From IMG/VR virus record IMGVR_UViG_3300032242_002783, positions 1 through 37,920 of that record: a stretch of DNA of 37,920 nucleotides; one strand, written 5' to 3'. A program made the translations under genes and the position numbers. The notes beneath the pieces were generated by a model, which made no database searches, was not told the DNA's origin, and was given only the letters and a program-made list of their open reading frames with translations. This document shows, piece after piece, positions 2,977-37,065 of this stretch (the first letter of the stretch is position 1; the number at the start of each line of letters is the position of its first letter). Source of the DNA: a virus.

Positions 2977-3252
2977 ATGATGAATGTCCGGCAAATGATC
3001 ATGCGCGTGTTTGGTGGCAACGTGACGCCCGTTGAGGTCGACTCGATCAGGTCGACGGGCACCGAAGACGGCCGCGTTGCTGCGGCCGCTTATTGCGATG
3101 GGTTCTTTGATGGAGCTGCAGCCGAATTGGAATCGCGATTCGCAGGTTTCCAGATGATCGATGTTCAACCGATTGCGATGGTGAAAAGTCGGCGGCTGCC
3201 GACGAAGGAACGAAGAGTTTTAACCACGAAGAGCGCGAAGGCCACGAAGTAA
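2977..3252 (+). CDS. small hypothetical protein with repeat-derived C-terminus
   Basis: A 91-residue protein; GAGGG lies 5 bases before ATG 2977 (ATG 2980 also possible). The N-terminal half is a plausible globular domain; the central part contains AAAAYCDGFFDGAAAELESRF. The last ten codons (VLTTKSAKATK) are a CCACGAAG-type intergenic repeat (about 3221-3249) that has run into the reading frame, replacing or extending the original C-terminus. No family recognised. Confidence 0.55.
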   Translation: MMNVRQMIMRVFGGNVTPVEVDSIRSTGTEDGRVAAAAYCDGFFDGAAAELESRFAGFQMIDVQPIAMVKSRRLPTKERRVLTTKSAKATK

Positions 3253-3255
3253 GAA

Positions 3256-3333
3256 TCACGCCATGGGCGGAAATTTCTTCGCCAGGTAGATGAAGACGGC
3301 GAGTGCCAACATTGCCAGGGCTGTTGCTTCCAT
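3256..3333 (-). CDS. 25-residue membrane microprotein coupled to the RHH gene
   Basis: On the minus strand the stop of the RHH gene and this start overlap as TGATG (ATG at 3333-3331), a classic translational coupling. The 25-residue product has one hydrophobic span (ATALAMLALAVFIYLA) and a short Lys-Lys-Phe-Pro-Pro tail. That fits a small membrane peptide, for example a toxin, holin-like or signalling peptide; nothing more specific can be said. Too short for ordinary gene callers; support comes from coupling and the membrane-segment pattern. Confidence 0.45.
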   Translation of the reverse strand: MEATALAMLALAVFIYLAKKFPPMA

Positions 3334-3521
3334 CAGGTTGCTTTCTGCTTTGACTGTTTGGTGGTTGCGGGTGCGATGGCTTGTAACACGATCTTGCGTA
3401 AGAACGTATTGACCGGTTCAGCGGTTTTTTCGACGTGGTTACGCAACAGGCGATGCTCTTCTAACGTCAGTTCTGTCGACACGTTTTTGACCAGGCTACC
3501 GAGTTGATCTGAAAATCGCAT
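3333..3521 (-). CDS. ribbon-helix-helix (CopG/Arc-like) regulator
   Basis: A 62-residue leftward gene with AGGAG 8 bases before its ATG. Residues about 18-50 (TELTLEEHRLLRNHVEKTAEPVNTFL then RKIVLQAI) follow the ribbon-helix-helix pattern: a short strand, an EEH-type helix start and a second basic helix. Such proteins dimerise and bind short inverted repeats through the N-terminal strand. An ATTCGTTC inverted-repeat cluster lies 26-52 bases upstream of the start, a likely autoregulatory operator. The reading frame is open upstream to 3965 but the strong RBS and the domain fix the start at 3521. It forms a two-gene leftward operon with the microprotein, opposed to all other genes here. It could be an antitoxin. 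Confidence 0.6.
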   Translation of the reverse strand: MRFSDQLGSLVKNVSTELTLEEHRLLRNHVEKTAEPVNTFLRKIVLQAIAPATTKQSKQKAT

Positions 3522-3573: not shown

Positions 3574-3779
3574 GTTGCGACGAATTGAGACTTGCGGCGA
3601 GCCAAGGACGGCGAGCCGCGATTCTCGTTTAAAAGCCTGTTTTTGTCGACTGCCAGTTCTCCCTTCTGTCTTTCCTCTCGACGCGCATCTTCAGCGTTTT
3701 TTATTCCAAAAATTATTCCGTTTGATTGCATCGGGTTTTTCCCGTCGCAGTGTGTTCGTGCATTTCCAAGGATGGAATC

Positions 3780-3971
3780 ATGATTCGACGTCGACCTGGT
3801 GAGCCGATCAAGAAATGGTCTGCGCTCGCTTTGTTTGGCATGTTGGCCTCTCAAGCAGCCGACGTGATCTTTCTGCCACGACTGCCATTCAGTCACGCTC
3901 AAGTCATTCGCCATCGGTCCCAGAAAAAGAAACGGTTGATCGCTCGGCGACGCAACCAGGTGCAAGGTTAG
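3780..3971 (+). CDS. small basic membrane protein, hypothetical
   Basis: A 63-residue protein with AAGGA 7 bases before ATG 3780. The N-terminus is basic (MIRRRPGEPIKKW), followed by a hydrophobic stretch (SALALFGMLASQAADVIFL, residues 14-32) and a strongly basic tail (KKKRLIARRRNQ). A single-pass membrane protein is likely. The frame is open upstream to 3726 but without a ribosome site. No family recognised; it is divergently oriented from the RHH operon and may share its control region. Confidence 0.5.
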   Translation: MIRRRPGEPIKKWSALALFGMLASQAADVIFLPRLPFSHAQVIRHRSQKKKRLIARRRNQVQG

Positions 3972-4092: not shown

Positions 4093-4200
4093 TTGAACCA
4101 CGAAGGGCACGAAGGCCACGAAGGAATTCTTTAGACATGGCTAACGCTACATGAACTCTGTTTGAAAACCTTCGTGGCCTTCGTGTTCTTCGTGGTTCAA
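4093..4200. repeat. host-type CCACGAAG inverted repeat
   Basis: TTGAACCACGAAGG... at 4093-4124 and its near-perfect complement at 4169-4200 (32-base arms, two mismatches) flank about 44 bases. This CCACGAAG-based repeat family is common between genes of planctomycetes and related bacteria. It fills most of the 3972-4255 gap, in which I see no gene. Confidence 0.75.
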
Positions 4201-20411: not shown

Positions 20412-20504
20412 TGAACCACGAAGGACACGAAGTCCACGAAGGTGAGAAGAACAACCTTTTCCGGTTTCCTGCTTCGTGTTCTTCGTGTCCTTCGTGGTTC
20501 AAAA
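20412..20504. repeat. host-type CCACGAAG inverted repeat, second locus
   Basis: TGAACCACGAAGGACACGAA at 20412 onward and its complement at 20472-20504 form the same kind of element as 4093-4200. It separates the small membrane gene from the thioredoxin gene. No gene in this gap. Confidence 0.75.
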
Positions 20505-23510: not shown

Positions 23511-24287
23511 GTGACTCCACGGACGTTTAAAGATAACGAGGGCCGGACGTGGACCGTCGCGGTGCCTTACAACATGATCGTCAAGGTGCTTGGCGAAACG
23601 GGCTTGGATCTTCGGCAATTGGCGGAAGATCATGACCATGTTGCTCGCGAACTGGATGATCCCATCAAGCTGCGAGTTGTGCTGGCCGTTCTGCTGGGTG
23701 AGCAATTGACCGTTGCCAAGATCGGGATTGATGATCTGCTGGAAGCGATCGTCAACGAAGAGCAGGCCACCGCGATGGTGATGGCCATCTACCAGGCGTC
23801 TTTCGATTTTTTCCAATCGCAGAGCGGCGTGATGAACGACGCTCTGAGTCGAGTGCAGCGGGCTCAGCAGACGGCGAAAGCCGCTGCGGCAGCTCGCATG
23901 AAAACATCGATCGACAACGGGCAGATGGATGCTTATCTCGCGATCGTGACCGATCCGAGTGTGGCAGCAGAGTGGATTCTGGCGAGTCAGAATCCGGCCA
24001 ACGTGGCAATCGTGGCGGCGTGGAACGAAGTCGTCGAAGCGGGAATCGAACCCGAAAAGAGGCTGTCGGCGTTTGCTCGACTGATCGTGGAGAACGGGTT
24101 GACGTTGCCGATGGTTGCGTCGAACGTGATGGCGTCCAGCTCGTCGACGATCCCTATGTCGCCTGGAAACGAGGTGACTCCGCCAACGACAAATTGGAAA
24201 CCGTCGACCCCTTCGACGAATGCTGGCGGCTCGCCGGAATTATCGGCGTCCACCCCGGCTGTTTCACCTGGCGTCAGCTCGACTTGA
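23511..24287 (+). CDS. tail assembly chaperone, short form (gpG-like)
   Basis: A 258-residue reading frame with GTG start and AGGAG 6 bases upstream. Residues 1-110 (MTPRTFKDNEGRTWTVAVPY ... LEAIVNEEQATAMVMAIYQA) are helical, as in tail chaperones; the helix around VAAEWILASQNPANVAIVAA is well ordered. From about residue 208 the frame becomes Ser/Thr/Pro-rich (ASSSSTIPMSPGNE...), while the -1 frame becomes a convincing protein, indicating that the tail of this frame is a non-conserved end. It binds the tape measure during tail assembly. Confidence 0.72.
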   Translation: MTPRTFKDNEGRTWTVAVPYNMIVKVLGETGLDLRQLAEDHDHVARELDDPIKLRVVLAVLLGEQLTVAKIGIDDLLEAIVNEEQATAMVMAIYQASFDFFQSQSGVMNDALSRVQRAQQTAKAAAAARMKTSIDNGQMDAYLAIVTDPSVAAEWILASQNPANVAIVAAWNEVVEAGIEPEKRLSAFARLIVENGLTLPMVASNVMASSSSTIPMSPGNEVTPPTTNWKPSTPSTNAGGSPELSASTPAVSPGVSST

Positions 24288-33487: not shown

Positions 33488-33609
33488 CAATTGAAGACGA
33501 CCCGATTTAAAAATGATGGGTCCTTCTTTGCGACTTCGGTTTGCGCCTCCGTAGGACACAGGCAGCGTGTCGAACTGCCTTTCTTTCGCGCCGTGACGCG
33601 TTTTCCCTA

Positions 33610-33655
<46 letters not shown>

Positions 33656-33669
33656 CTGTTTCAAGTTAG

Positions 33670-33694
33670 ACCACCGGATACAGCATCCGGTGGT
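33670..33694. repeat. inverted repeat beside attP
   Basis: ACCACCGGA (33670-33678) and TCCGGTGGT (33686-33694) form a perfect 9-7-9 hairpin. TCCGGTGGT also occurs inside the tRNA half at 33621-33629, giving three copies in 74 bases. Candidate integrase binding sites. No gene in 33488-33715 otherwise. Confidence 0.6.
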
Positions 33695-33715
33695 GAGACG
33701 CAAACGGAGCCAGCA

Positions 33716-34372
33716 ATGTTCCGAAGTTTTGCCGTCGTTTTATTCGTCGCTTTTTCTACGTGCACGGCTGAAGAATTCACCCTTGAAGGCAATGTCGTCT
33801 CGATAGAGCACGGCGATGCGATCACGCTGAGCTGCAAGGGCACTAAGAAGCTCATTTACCTGCGTGGCACAGACGCTCCCGACAAAGATCAAAAGTATTG
33901 GTCCGATTCAAAAAAGAATATTTCAGATCTTTTAAAAGATAAGTCGGTCGAAGTGCATTGGACTGACGTCGACGGAGCCGGTCGCTTGATGGCAGAAGTT
34001 TTGCTGAACGGCAAATCCGTAAATCGACAAATGATAAATGACGGATGGTCTTGGCATTACTCACAACAATTTGAATCGGAAGAATACGCAAAAGACCAGG
34101 CGGAAGCGAAAGCTGCCAAGCGTGGAATTTGGGCTGATTCAAGATCAGAAGCTCCGTGGGTACACAGGCAGAAGGTACACGCGGAAACCAAACCATTTTC
34201 ACCTTCAATGACCACGACTCAGAAGACGTTGAAACCCGCCAAAGAAATCGTTCCTTCCGTTGAAAGTAAAACCACAACTGTCAAACCAACGGGCGACATT
34301 TGGGTTGATGGGCACTGGAGAAAAACGAAGACAGGGCGGACATGGGTCGATGGTCATTGGCGTAAACGATGA
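33716..34372 (+). CDS. secreted staphylococcal nuclease-like protein
   Basis: A 218-residue protein; GGAG lies 6 bases before ATG 33716. Signal peptide at residues 1-18 (FAVVLFVAFSTCTAEE). The nuclease fold spans about 20-140: VVSIEHGDAI, LIYLRGTDAPD (Arg35 equivalent; the usual catalytic Glu position near here is occupied by Asp or shifted), AGRLMAEV (Arg87 equivalent), NRQMINDGWSWHY, and AAKRGIW. The C-terminus has a Thr/Lys-rich linker and a tandem WVDGHWRK motif (about 196-217). It may degrade extracellular DNA or RNA. It is the first gene after attP, hence at one prophage end, typical of accessory cargo. Confidence 0.78.
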   Translation: MFRSFAVVLFVAFSTCTAEEFTLEGNVVSIEHGDAITLSCKGTKKLIYLRGTDAPDKDQKYWSDSKKNISDLLKDKSVEVHWTDVDGAGRLMAEVLLNGKSVNRQMINDGWSWHYSQQFESEEYAKDQAEAKAAKRGIWADSRSEAPWVHRQKVHAETKPFSPSMTTTQKTLKPAKEIVPSVESKTTTVKPTGDIWVDGHWRKTKTGRTWVDGHWRKR

Positions 34373-34380
34373 ACGACCAA

Positions 34381-34408
34381 TTGTCTTTTGTAACGATAGA
34401 GATACAAT
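34381..34408 (+). promoter_or_regulatory. sigma-70 promoter for the XRE gene
   Basis: TTGTCT (-35), 16-base spacer, TACAAT (-10, 5 of 6 consensus). The predicted start at about 34415 coincides with ATG 34416, implying a nearly leaderless mRNA, as for lambda cI from PRM. A half operator TGTAAC (34389-34394) lies in the spacer. Confidence 0.65.
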
Positions 34409-34415
34409 CGAGGGT

Positions 34416-34664
34416 ATGAACGTGACCGACGAAGAAGCCAAAGACCGAGTAGCGGCAAACATTCGTCAGATCCTAGAAGAACGGGGTCTTTCGGGGCGGG
34501 CTCTTGCACGTATGACGGGCGATACTGCGATGCGGATCAATACCGTTATGCGTGGCGAAGTGAACCCCAACATTGGAGTTTTGGCACGAATCGCTGCTGC
34601 ACTTCAAACCACCGTCGACTATTTGGTGATGCACGAGCCAAAGAATTCTGATATCGCCGCTTGA
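34416..34664 (+). CDS. XRE-family transcriptional repressor
   Basis: An 82-residue protein consisting of a Cro/CI-type helix-turn-helix domain: ANIRQILEERGLSGRALARM, TGDTAMRINTVMRGEVNPNI (recognition helix) and LARIAAALQTTVDYL. No cleavage or oligomerisation domain follows, so it is a short repressor or Cro-like protein. GTG 34422, 7 bases after GAGGG, is an alternative start. It is flanked by its own promoter and, overlapping its stop, a promoter containing a perfect palindrome. Likely the lysogeny switch. Confidence 0.75.
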   Translation: MNVTDEEAKDRVAANIRQILEERGLSGRALARMTGDTAMRINTVMRGEVNPNIGVLARIAAALQTTVDYLVMHEPKNSDIAA

Positions 34665-34688
34665 CGAGTGTAACTATATAGTTACACT
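34661..34688 (+). promoter_or_regulatory. operator-promoter after the XRE gene
   Basis: TTGACG (-35, 5 of 6) begins on the XRE stop codon; TACACT (-10) lies 16 bases on. A perfect 22-base palindrome (34667-34688, core GTGTAACTATATAGTTACAC) fills the spacer and overlaps the -10. A repressor bound here would block the promoter. The half-site TGTAAC recurs in the XRE promoter. Confidence 0.7.
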
Positions 34689-34690
34689 AG

Positions 34691-34756
34691 CCCCCGTTGA
34701 ACCGGGGGACGAACGAGAGACGCCGCCTGGGCCAACACGCCTGGGCGGCGTTTTTT
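34691..34756 (+). ncRNA. short terminated RNA or attenuator leader
   Basis: A 6-bp hairpin CCCCCG / CGGGGG (34691-34708) precedes a strong terminator: ACGCCGCCTGGGC / GCCTGGGCGGCGT (34720-34732 and 34739-34751, two G-U pairs) then TTTTTT. From the promoter at 34661, transcripts would start near 34695 and end near 34756, about 60 bases. Either a small RNA or a leader controlled by antitermination. Confidence 0.6.
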
Positions 34757-34792
34757 CGTTGGCGACCTCCGACGCCGCCGCCCGGGATTGTT

Positions 34793-34894
34793 TAAGCCTC
34801 TCGTGATGCGGCGTGGTCTTCCCACCGCACTCACCAGCTGCGGTAAAGGGACGTTGGCCCGACCCTTTAGCCCCGCCGCGTCACGAGAGGCTTA
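34793..34894 (+). ncRNA. structured RNA element, three-way junction
   Basis: Outer stem: 21 bases at 34793-34813 pair with 34874-34894 (one G-U). Inside are two hairpins, ACCGCA / TGCGGT (34824-34844) and AAAGGG / CCCTTT (34845-34868), directly adjacent so they could stack. The Shine-Dalgarno of the 34912 gene begins 4 bases after the outer stem. It resembles a leader regulator or a stable RNA; no known family is recognised and no reverse transcriptase is present. Confidence 0.6.
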
Positions 34895-34911
34895 CCTGGG
34901 AGGGCTTTCTC

Positions 34912-35232
34912 TTGCCAAAACAGTCGACTGTTACCGATCGCGACGCGTTGCGAATCGAGGCTCAACGCCTCAGAGATGAACTCTGTTGGACTCCGATCGA
35001 TATCGCCAATCGTCTTCAGGTTCCACTCGCCACGGTGCGTCACTGGCTGTCAGTGGCCAAACTTGGCAGGTCTGTGTTGCGACGTGGTCAATTACCTGTC
35101 GGACCCCGCGACGAATTGCTCGATCGATACTTCCTGACTCCGATCGGAAGCGAGGCGGCTCATCAGCTTCTTCACGCTGTTAGGTTCTCGCCGGTTTCTG
35201 GCACGTTGCCAGAATTCAACGACGACGATTGA
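34912..35232 (+). CDS. helix-turn-helix protein
   Basis: A 106-residue protein from TTG 34912, chosen because GGGAGGG lies 7 bases upstream; longer frames reading back through the structured element are rejected. HTH at about residues 23-50 (LCWTPIDIANRLQVPLATVR, then HWLSVAKLG). The rest is a basic then mixed region ending in acidic FNDDD. Candidate early regulator or recombination directionality factor, as it stands beside the two recombinase genes. Control by the RNA leader at 34793 is likely. Confidence 0.65.
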   Translation: MPKQSTVTDRDALRIEAQRLRDELCWTPIDIANRLQVPLATVRHWLSVAKLGRSVLRRGQLPVGPRDELLDRYFLTPIGSEAAHQLLHAVRFSPVSGTLPEFNDDD

Positions 35233-35421
35233 TCGTTATGACCGTCGCGACTCTGGCCGCATTTTGATCGTCGGGTTTTAAAACGTCGAATTTTGCGAAG
35301 TGAACATGGGTAGAAAAATGACCAGGACGCGGCGGACTTGTCAGTCGGCCGAAGTGGATGCTGAGCGTGGAGGCTCAAAACATTTTCGCGATCTCCATTC
35401 TTGCTGAAATAGGTCAATACC
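35233..35421. other. intergenic region with only a weak small ORF
   Basis: No convincing gene. ATG 35306 opens a 33-codon frame (MGRKMTRTRRTC...) without a strong ribosome site. A GGTTTTAAAAC palindromic core lies near 35275. Could hold the promoter or RNA leader of the recombinase that follows. Confidence 0.35.
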
Positions 35422-36417
35422 ATGAACGAAGCTTCGTCACTCACACTCGCCAAAGCCTGGGAAACTCTTGTCGTGCCTGAAATGGACCAAGTTGCCGATA
35501 GCACTCTTTCGCAGTACCGCGACGATCTGCGGCTCTGGGAGAAGCTATCACCGAACCCGCCCGTCGCTGAAATTCGACGCGACACGGTGATGAAGTTTCG
35601 CGAGAAGCTCATCCAGACAGCCTCAAATCGAGGCCGACAGAAGGGCGGTAAGCGATCGCTTTCGACAGTCAACCGAATCATGCGAGAGATTCACGTTGTT
35701 CTCTCGCCCTTCTGGCCTGCGGACCGGAGCTGCCCTGGCGGCAAAGGATTCGTTCCGTTTTTCGCCTGGCCACGCCCGTTGTCGTTTCAACGTAAGCTGC
35801 CGTTCATTTTCTCAGTCAAGGACCTCGACAACCTTTATCTTAATGCCGACGCCTACGCGGCAACGTCGGGATGCCGCTCAACGCCGATGAACGAGGGCAG
35901 GCTATGGAGAGCCGCCCTTGTTCTCGCGCTGAACTGCGGAGCGCGTACGTTCGATTTGTTTGATCTGCAATGGACCGACATTCGACTGGATGATCCGCAC
36001 CCCTACAAGTTTGGATCTGTCGTGTTCGGTGCCAGGAAGACGAACAAGCTTCACCGAGTTCCCCTCAACGAATGCGCTTTCGCTCATTTGAAAGACCTCA
36101 AGGTCGATCCAGTCGCGTCTTCCGAATCAGACCGCGTCTTCCCTGGCTTCAACAAAGGGAAGACGTTTTACAAGGCTTGGAAGACGATTTGCGATGCATC
36201 GGAAGTCGATGGCTGTTTCGAATCCCTTCGAAAAACGTGCCACACGATGCACAGCAATATCAGTCCAGACGTCGGCAAGTGGCTGACAGGCCATCGTTGC
36301 AGCGACGTCACGGGCTACTACGACAATCCAACGCTTCGAATTCTCGAAGCGGTTTACAAATTTGACCCGCGACCAGCTTTCAAAGCGGGAATGCTCGCGC
36401 TAACGGGGGCCGCATGA
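35422..36417 (+). CDS. second tyrosine recombinase
   Basis: A 331-residue protein. N-terminal core-binding SAM-like domain (residues 1-95: DSTLSQYRDDLRLWEKL). The catalytic domain has Arg I in NCGARTFDLFDLQW (about 176), the Lys in ARKTNKLHRVPL, R in FESLRKTCH (about 270) and Tyr in GYYDNP (about 301), with GH in LTGHRC. The first His of the HxxR box is replaced: the segment reads E-S-L-R. Members with this change are frequent in planctomycete mobile elements. A second recombinase could resolve dimers or excise. Overlaps the next gene as ATGA. Confidence 0.75.
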   Translation: MNEASSLTLAKAWETLVVPEMDQVADSTLSQYRDDLRLWEKLSPNPPVAEIRRDTVMKFREKLIQTASNRGRQKGGKRSLSTVNRIMREIHVVLSPFWPADRSCPGGKGFVPFFAWPRPLSFQRKLPFIFSVKDLDNLYLNADAYAATSGCRSTPMNEGRLWRAALVLALNCGARTFDLFDLQWTDIRLDDPHPYKFGSVVFGARKTNKLHRVPLNECAFAHLKDLKVDPVASSESDRVFPGFNKGKTFYKAWKTICDASEVDGCFESLRKTCHTMHSNISPDVGKWLTGHRCSDVTGYYDNPTLRILEAVYKFDPRPAFKAGMLALTGAA

Positions 36418-36784: not shown

Positions 36785-36828
36785 TTTGGCTTCTGGTTTT
36801 GTGATTTACTTTTATCAAGGAATTGAAG

Positions 36829-37065
36829 ATGGCAGGAATGTGTGTTTTAACCAGGAAGCCTGGCGAGACTGTTGTCATCGGAAACGTGATTGTCACGTTT
36901 ATAAGATTAAAGGGCGGAGCGATTCGCCTCGGAATTGAGGCACCTAGTGATGTGCGGATCTTGCGCGGCGAATTGATGGAATGGAAAACAGAAGGCGGAA
37001 AGCTGGTCCCTTGTCTGATTGAGCTTGAAGAGGCTTCTTCAGAACTGGCTTCTGATGCTGCATAG
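36829..37065 (+). CDS. csrA: CsrA-like translational regulator
   Basis: A 78-residue protein; AAGGA lies 7 bases before ATG 36829. The CsrA fold is clear: CVLTRKPGETVVIGN (strand 1 and the R-K-x-G-E loop), VIVTFIRLKGGAIRLGIEAP (strands 2-4, G-x-x-x-R-L-G-I), then SDVRILRGELME (the binding edge V-x-I-x-R-x-E) and a short helix. The dimer binds GGA in RNA hairpin loops, blocking or stabilising mRNAs. The tail is longer than bacterial CsrA (usually near 60-70). Phage or host mRNAs may be targets, including the capsid gene leader. Confidence 0.9.
   Translation: MAGMCVLTRKPGETVVIGNVIVTFIRLKGGAIRLGIEAPSDVRILRGELMEWKTEGGKLVPCLIELEEASSELASDAA

Follow-up and report, generated by a model that had tools for sequence, protein, structure and literature searches.

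A three-way junction conserved in shape over sequence in the probable early leader of temperate planctomycete phages

About 100 bases of an IMG/VR virus record of ~38 kb (the window, i.e. the whole stretch of DNA that was analysed) fold into a three-way junction at positions 34793-34894 on the plus strand, and a junction of the same shape, but of different sequence, is found at the same place in related phages. The window is a temperate phage of planctomycetes whose relatives include the plasmid-prophage pPLIM01 and prophages that sit in tRNA genes, and the element is probably a cis-acting structured RNA module that forms part of the 5' leader of the early transcript in such phages. A literature search found no description of this element or of the control region of planctomycete temperate phages.

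Fold and stability of the element

The junction has three arms, namely: (i) an outer stem (34793-34813 paired with 34874-34894) of 21 pairs, 20 of them Watson-Crick and one U.G (34807.34880), with a 3-bp extension inside it (34815-34817 with 34870-34872); (ii) hairpin 1 (34824-34844); and (iii) hairpin 2 (34845-34868). The minimum free energy (MFE) of the region 34780-34920 is -76.8 kcal/mol (z -6.7), a stability equalled by none of 200 shuffled sequences; the element alone gives -61.8 kcal/mol (z -9.0), and a scan of the 37.9-kb window for three-way structures placed it first, at -63 kcal/mol versus -50 kcal/mol for the runner-up. Fold, shuffles and z values confirm the structure of the original prediction, with a 21-bp outer stem and two inner hairpins. 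Its statement that no known riboswitch family is recognized agrees with Rfam, which returned nothing above the gathering threshold in the whole window and nothing overlapping the element in 33500-35500, and only tRNAs in the relatives.

Long inverted repeats are often mobile, and the window holds others, so that a transposon end, a MITE or a chance inverted repeat has to be considered. However, when the 37.9-kb record was searched for copies, only the element and its own two arms were matched, and the same place is occupied in many phages by a structure of unrelated sequence; together with the z of -9, this makes such an origin hardly credible. Identity to a transposon end, named beforehand as an observation that would speak against a structured RNA, was not found, distant relatives being devoid of sequence similarity.

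In the MFE fold the stem is lengthened by pairing of 34781-34786 with 34895-34900, which engages the first GGG of GGGAGGG (34898-34904, plus strand), the likely ribosome-binding site found 3 bases past the stem. The gene that follows (34912-35232, plus strand; TTG start at 34912) encodes a small HTH protein of 106 aa with a weak HTH_23 match below cut-off, for which no relatives were found in viral or genome contigs, and its reading frame is open upstream to a GTG at 34813, within the structure. The pairing of the first GGG and the 3-nt distance are what one would expect if the element controlled the HTH gene as a translational switch or riboswitch, yet such a role is very unlikely: the HTH gene has no counterpart in the relatives, whereas the junction does, and in most of them the junction lies hundreds of bases before the gene of the second tyrosine recombinase, IntT. 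The proposed location directly at a ribosome site is correct for the window and not as a general feature, the distance to IntT in most relatives being ~200-400 nt.

The phage and its predicted early control region

The layout of the window agrees with that of plasmid pPLIM01 of Planctopirus limnophila (terminase, portal, capsid, tail, ParB, two tyrosine recombinases and CsrA) and with that of prophages in the genomes of one planctomycete family. The phage attachment site is the 3' part of a tRNA-Asp (33610-33657, plus strand), recognized from the sequence and from direct repeats: the same stretch of 38 bp is present in two copies both in G517 (38.6 kb apart) and in G503 (37.5 kb apart). Such repeats are expected where an integrated phage begins and ends, and they place the region within the phage. 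In G510 the site is empty and there is no upstream leader. Judging from the layout, the window would hold a nearly complete phage genome, opened at another point, and the element would be phage, not host, DNA. Downstream of the attachment site, a hairpin mimicking the tRNA anticodon stem-loop (ACCGGAT.....ATCCGGT) is found at 33670-33694; it recurs at the same place in L043, L044, L045, L046, L052, L026, L027 and L030, and varies with the tRNA used. Elsewhere, two near-related long inverted repeats (4093-4200 and 20412-20501; TTGAACCACGAAGG...CCTTCGTGGTTCAA, arms of 30-37 nt) are, for their composition, more stable than the element studied here.

The first integrase, the attachment site and a nuclease-like gene are followed, in this order, by an XRE repressor gene, a promoter, a hairpin, a terminator-like stem, the junction, the HTH gene, IntT and CsrA. 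The XRE (Cro/C1-type) repressor gene (34416-34664, plus strand) is identified by Pfam HTH_3 and by the PHROG transcriptional repressor. The predicted sigma-70 promoter (TTGACG-16-TACACT, 34661-34688, plus strand; 9 of 12 matches) has counterparts in two relatives, L043 and L045, and its -10 box is covered by a perfect 20-bp palindrome (GTGTAACTATATAGTTACAC, 34668-34687), which, with near-palindromes at the same place in both relatives, is likely the operator of the neighbouring repressor. At the predicted transcript start, a hairpin (34691-34708, plus strand) carries the sequence GCCCCCGTTGAACCGGG, identical in L043 and replaced by another hairpin sequence in L045. Next comes a stem-loop followed by TTTTTT (34712-34760, plus strand), with counterparts in both relatives, which is a possible attenuator resembling a terminator, the terminator scan being by itself not above its shuffles.

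IntT (35422-36417, plus strand) is 55% identical in L043, the most informative relative, and 37% in pPLIM01. It shows FExxRKT where tyrosine recombinases usually show HxxR, an atypical active site that is kept among relatives. A csrA-like gene (36823-37065, plus strand; Pfam CsrA) lies downstream, and CsrA is near IntT in most relatives too. Paired GGA motifs precede IntT, for example in the window (35340-35421, GTGGAT...GGAGG) and in L024 (4070-4160, CACGGAGG...ACGGA), which suggests possible CsrA autoregulation.

In the lysogen, the XRE protein would keep the promoter at 34661-34688 shut; upon its release, RNA polymerase would start near 34690, pass the hairpin and the terminator-like stem and then transcribe the junction ahead of the early genes (HTH, IntT, CsrA and others). 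Transcription, repressor binding, read-through and processing are predicted steps of this scheme, in which selection would preserve the fold and not the sequence, and the module would serve as a landmark of double-stranded RNA that parts the regulated leader from the early mRNA, most likely through RNase III cleavage or as a stable 5' block. Taken alone, the RNase III or insulator step is a tentative proposal.

The N leader of lambda carries an RNase III hairpin, and T7 has early RNase III sites. Similar to these, the element presents a long double-stranded stem in or between phage early mRNAs, by the start of early genes, with shape prevailing over sequence, and it places a helix of about two turns (20-24 bp) in the early leader; it differs in being a three-way junction instead of one hairpin, in that no boxA or boxB was seen, and in that cleavage is a prediction. 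The put RNA of HK022, which likewise folds in the nascent leader of an early phage operon, consists of two hairpins without an enclosing stem, lies before the terminators and depends on specific sequences. A processive antitermination RNA of this kind, staying on the polymerase so that the terminators of the long early operon are passed, would suit the position and the paired hairpins of the element; it is nevertheless decidedly unlikely, since the sequence is free here and the first terminator-like stem precedes the junction in the window and L043 (and the place of the junction in L045), too early for help. With the Gifsy-1 IsrK leader (PMC4825925), the window would share a phage transcript with short terminated and read-through forms, as predicted for the window; sequence and genes differ, and the trans-acting role is that of IsrK, none being claimed for the window element.

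Relatives with the same shape and a different sequence

Relatives were gathered with the tyrosine recombinase gene (IntT) as the search key. In L043, read as the reverse complement, an XRE-like gene, a promoter that carries a near-palindrome, a hairpin with the 17-base sequence GCCCCCGTTGAACCGGG and a terminator-like stem are followed, 13 nt on, by a junction (outer stem of 20 bp, two hairpins of 7 bp each) whose sequence is unrelated to that of the window. As these 13 nt leave no room for a promoter of its own, transcription of the L043 junction would be by read-through. Everything except the junction is present in L045 (IntT 51% identical); none was seen in L025 and no clear one in L044, and the L033 sequence stops short of the region.

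A junction at the same place is found in 11 further related loci (L005, L006, L024, L046, L052, L088, L026, L028, L030, L050 and L027), and among the three-way structures of each of the 11 scanned records giving such an element it ranks first in stability in nine (it is second in L052, and not first in L050). In these distant relatives it spans 82-96 nt (a range that leaves out L027), with a short outer stem, a hairpin 1 of 9-14 pairs and a hairpin 2 of 13-19 pairs. Sequence identity between subgroups is little or none; L026, L027, L028 and L030 share part of the stems, and in L005 and L006 the stems are near-identical (one U-A changed to U.G) and the loops differ. Elements of the same shape and unrelated sequence at the same place are what the covariation check proposed with the original prediction called for. 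Other searches were less productive: IntT alone and a two-row alignment had no matches in viral contigs, the leader motif common to the window and L043 occurred in no other viral contig, and IntT is absent from the short contigs of the terminase relatives L070-L072.

In the ten shorter-stem elements, the outer stem and hairpin 2 together amount to 20-23 pairs, with 0-2 nt between them on the 3' side, where they could stack; the outer stem reaches 20-21 pairs by itself in the window and L043. The recurring quantity is a helix of about two turns, a post hoc regularity on elements whose ends were chosen by eye, to be taken as a lead. With the long helix being the outer stem in the window and L043, and hairpin 2 in the others, the window type may be convergent.

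Directly before the junction, other subgroups carry a conserved structured leader RNA of ~200 nt, made up of a hairpin, a CACCCCGTCGAAAGGGTG hairpin and a 124-nt domain CTCAGC...GCTGAG with a U-run (L005 23555-23750, L006 3383-3577, L024 3640-3838, L046 4115-4312, L052 1715-1888, and L088). RNAalifold finds 38 pairs in the conserved domain, seven with double changes. The corresponding model (R1) has no Rfam match and gave weak hits at the right place in L050, L026 and L044, none of which had been used in building it. The type-C leader motif gave two additional hits, in G464 and G494, which looked like chance.

The main rival explanation is that of a DNA element used by IntT, either a folded single-strand/cruciform recombination site or a lox-like inverted repeat, as such sites can keep shape or arm symmetry while the sequence drifts. 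Integron attC and CTX-phage attP are folded single-strand sites of this type, found near a tyrosine recombinase gene and keeping shape or symmetry over sequence. The element resembles them in its conservation of shape and in its neighbourhood, but it is present in single copy, has a long spacer in the window, and its ends, which read TAAGCC/GGCTTA, do not carry RYYYAAC/GTTRRRY boxes. A tyrosine recombinase does lie downstream in every relative, as is bound to be the case in a set collected by that gene. In L005 and L006, hairpin 2 has the form of a 16-bp inverted repeat whose 8-bp spacer is not the same in the two, as would be expected of lox-type sites; however, in L026, L027, L028 and L030 hairpin 2 closes on 3-7-nt loops, and the long arms of the window and L043 are 45-60 nt apart, unlike those of lox or dif sites.

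Covariation fits a folded RNA and a folded DNA strand alike and cannot tell them apart. The single G-U pair of the outer stem, which had been read as a sign of RNA selection, turned out to be uninformative, with G.U pairs near equal on the two strands in seven elements (12 on the plus versus 11 on the minus strand); in 12 elements they are 28 versus 17, a bias that leans to RNA weakly, its weakness counting in favour of a DNA site. All in all, a DNA site is unlikely, given that the phage already has an integrase beside the attachment site and that the element is placed within a promoter-to-gene leader, which in several subgroups has a separate structured RNA domain ahead of the element. An RNA is favoured by this position, by the hairpin at the transcript start and by the conserved leader domain of the other subgroups; the points against a leader RNA are L045 without a junction, L025 where none was seen, and the weak strand bias of G.U pairs.

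Protein and RNA candidates for immunity

Judged by its sequence, the immunity device of the window looks like a Cro/C1-type repressor with its operator. The element had been put forward both as a phage regulatory RNA, which stands in the form of a probable regulatory structure, and as a superinfection-immunity RNA, which was rejected: it is not antisense to its own leader, and in some relatives a candidate antisense RNA is encoded separately, with the leader as its predicted target. Antisense targets of the window element scored at most 22, near background (no formal null); in the reverse search, for an antisense RNA directed at the leader of the window, the best hit (score 28.5) was a match of 47 nt within the Int1 gene, rich in wobble pairs, and was not accepted without a null.

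The separate RNAs are found in L026, L027, L028 and L030, as stem-loop elements of 90-120 nt after the tRNA (L026 3124-3245, L027 2555-2645, L028 2405-2505 and L030 3961-4053, oriented with IntT on the plus strand), the loop of which complements, over 17-19 bases, the first predicted bases of the early leader (starting near 3408, 3303, 3606 and 4147, respectively, in the same orientation). Their sequences differ from phage to phage, and in all four the cognate duplex is the strongest (-28.2 to -34.8 kcal/mol, versus -16.2 to -26.3 kcal/mol for non-cognate ones), a strength matched by 0 or 1 of 300 shuffled sequences. In L027, a second copy lies in tandem (2690-2778) and differs in specificity: it does not fit the leader of L027, and a search for its target gave one 3-mismatch hit only, taken as chance. 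The CI RNA of phage P4 is small and structured and acts by pairing with the early leader. The four antisense candidates, with their predicted pairing, look like P4-CI-like RNA immunity, no sequence relation being claimed; the element of the window is no RNA of this kind, its complementarity being near background. Taken together, these features suggest that the phage group guards the same leader by protein or by RNA.

Another conserved block after the tRNA, GATGAGGCnCC...GTCAGGGC..., is present in L024 (~3120-3425, twice in tandem), L025 (oriented, ~3740-3840), L044 (~2700-2815), L046 (~3100-3200) and L052 (~560-660); in L046 two stretches complement the early leader, and the block is perhaps the immunity RNA of its subgroup.

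A broader proposal, for the time being doubtful, is that such early-leader RNAs form a new class in phages, with selection acting only on the three-way shape and the two-turn helix, and offer related phages a common platform on which control devices are swapped: the XRE repressor and attenuator for the window and L043, and for L026, L027, L028 and L030 an antisense immunity RNA directed at the first bases of the leader. Since pPLIM01 resides in a cultivated species, Planctopirus limnophila, its version, at 23752-23841 of NC_014149.1, is directly testable. If the element is indeed part of the early leader, one RNA shape would persist at a fixed place through a near-total turnover of sequence, so that sequence-based RNA searches would miss it, and the same leader would be under protein control in some phages and, seemingly, under antisense-RNA control in others.
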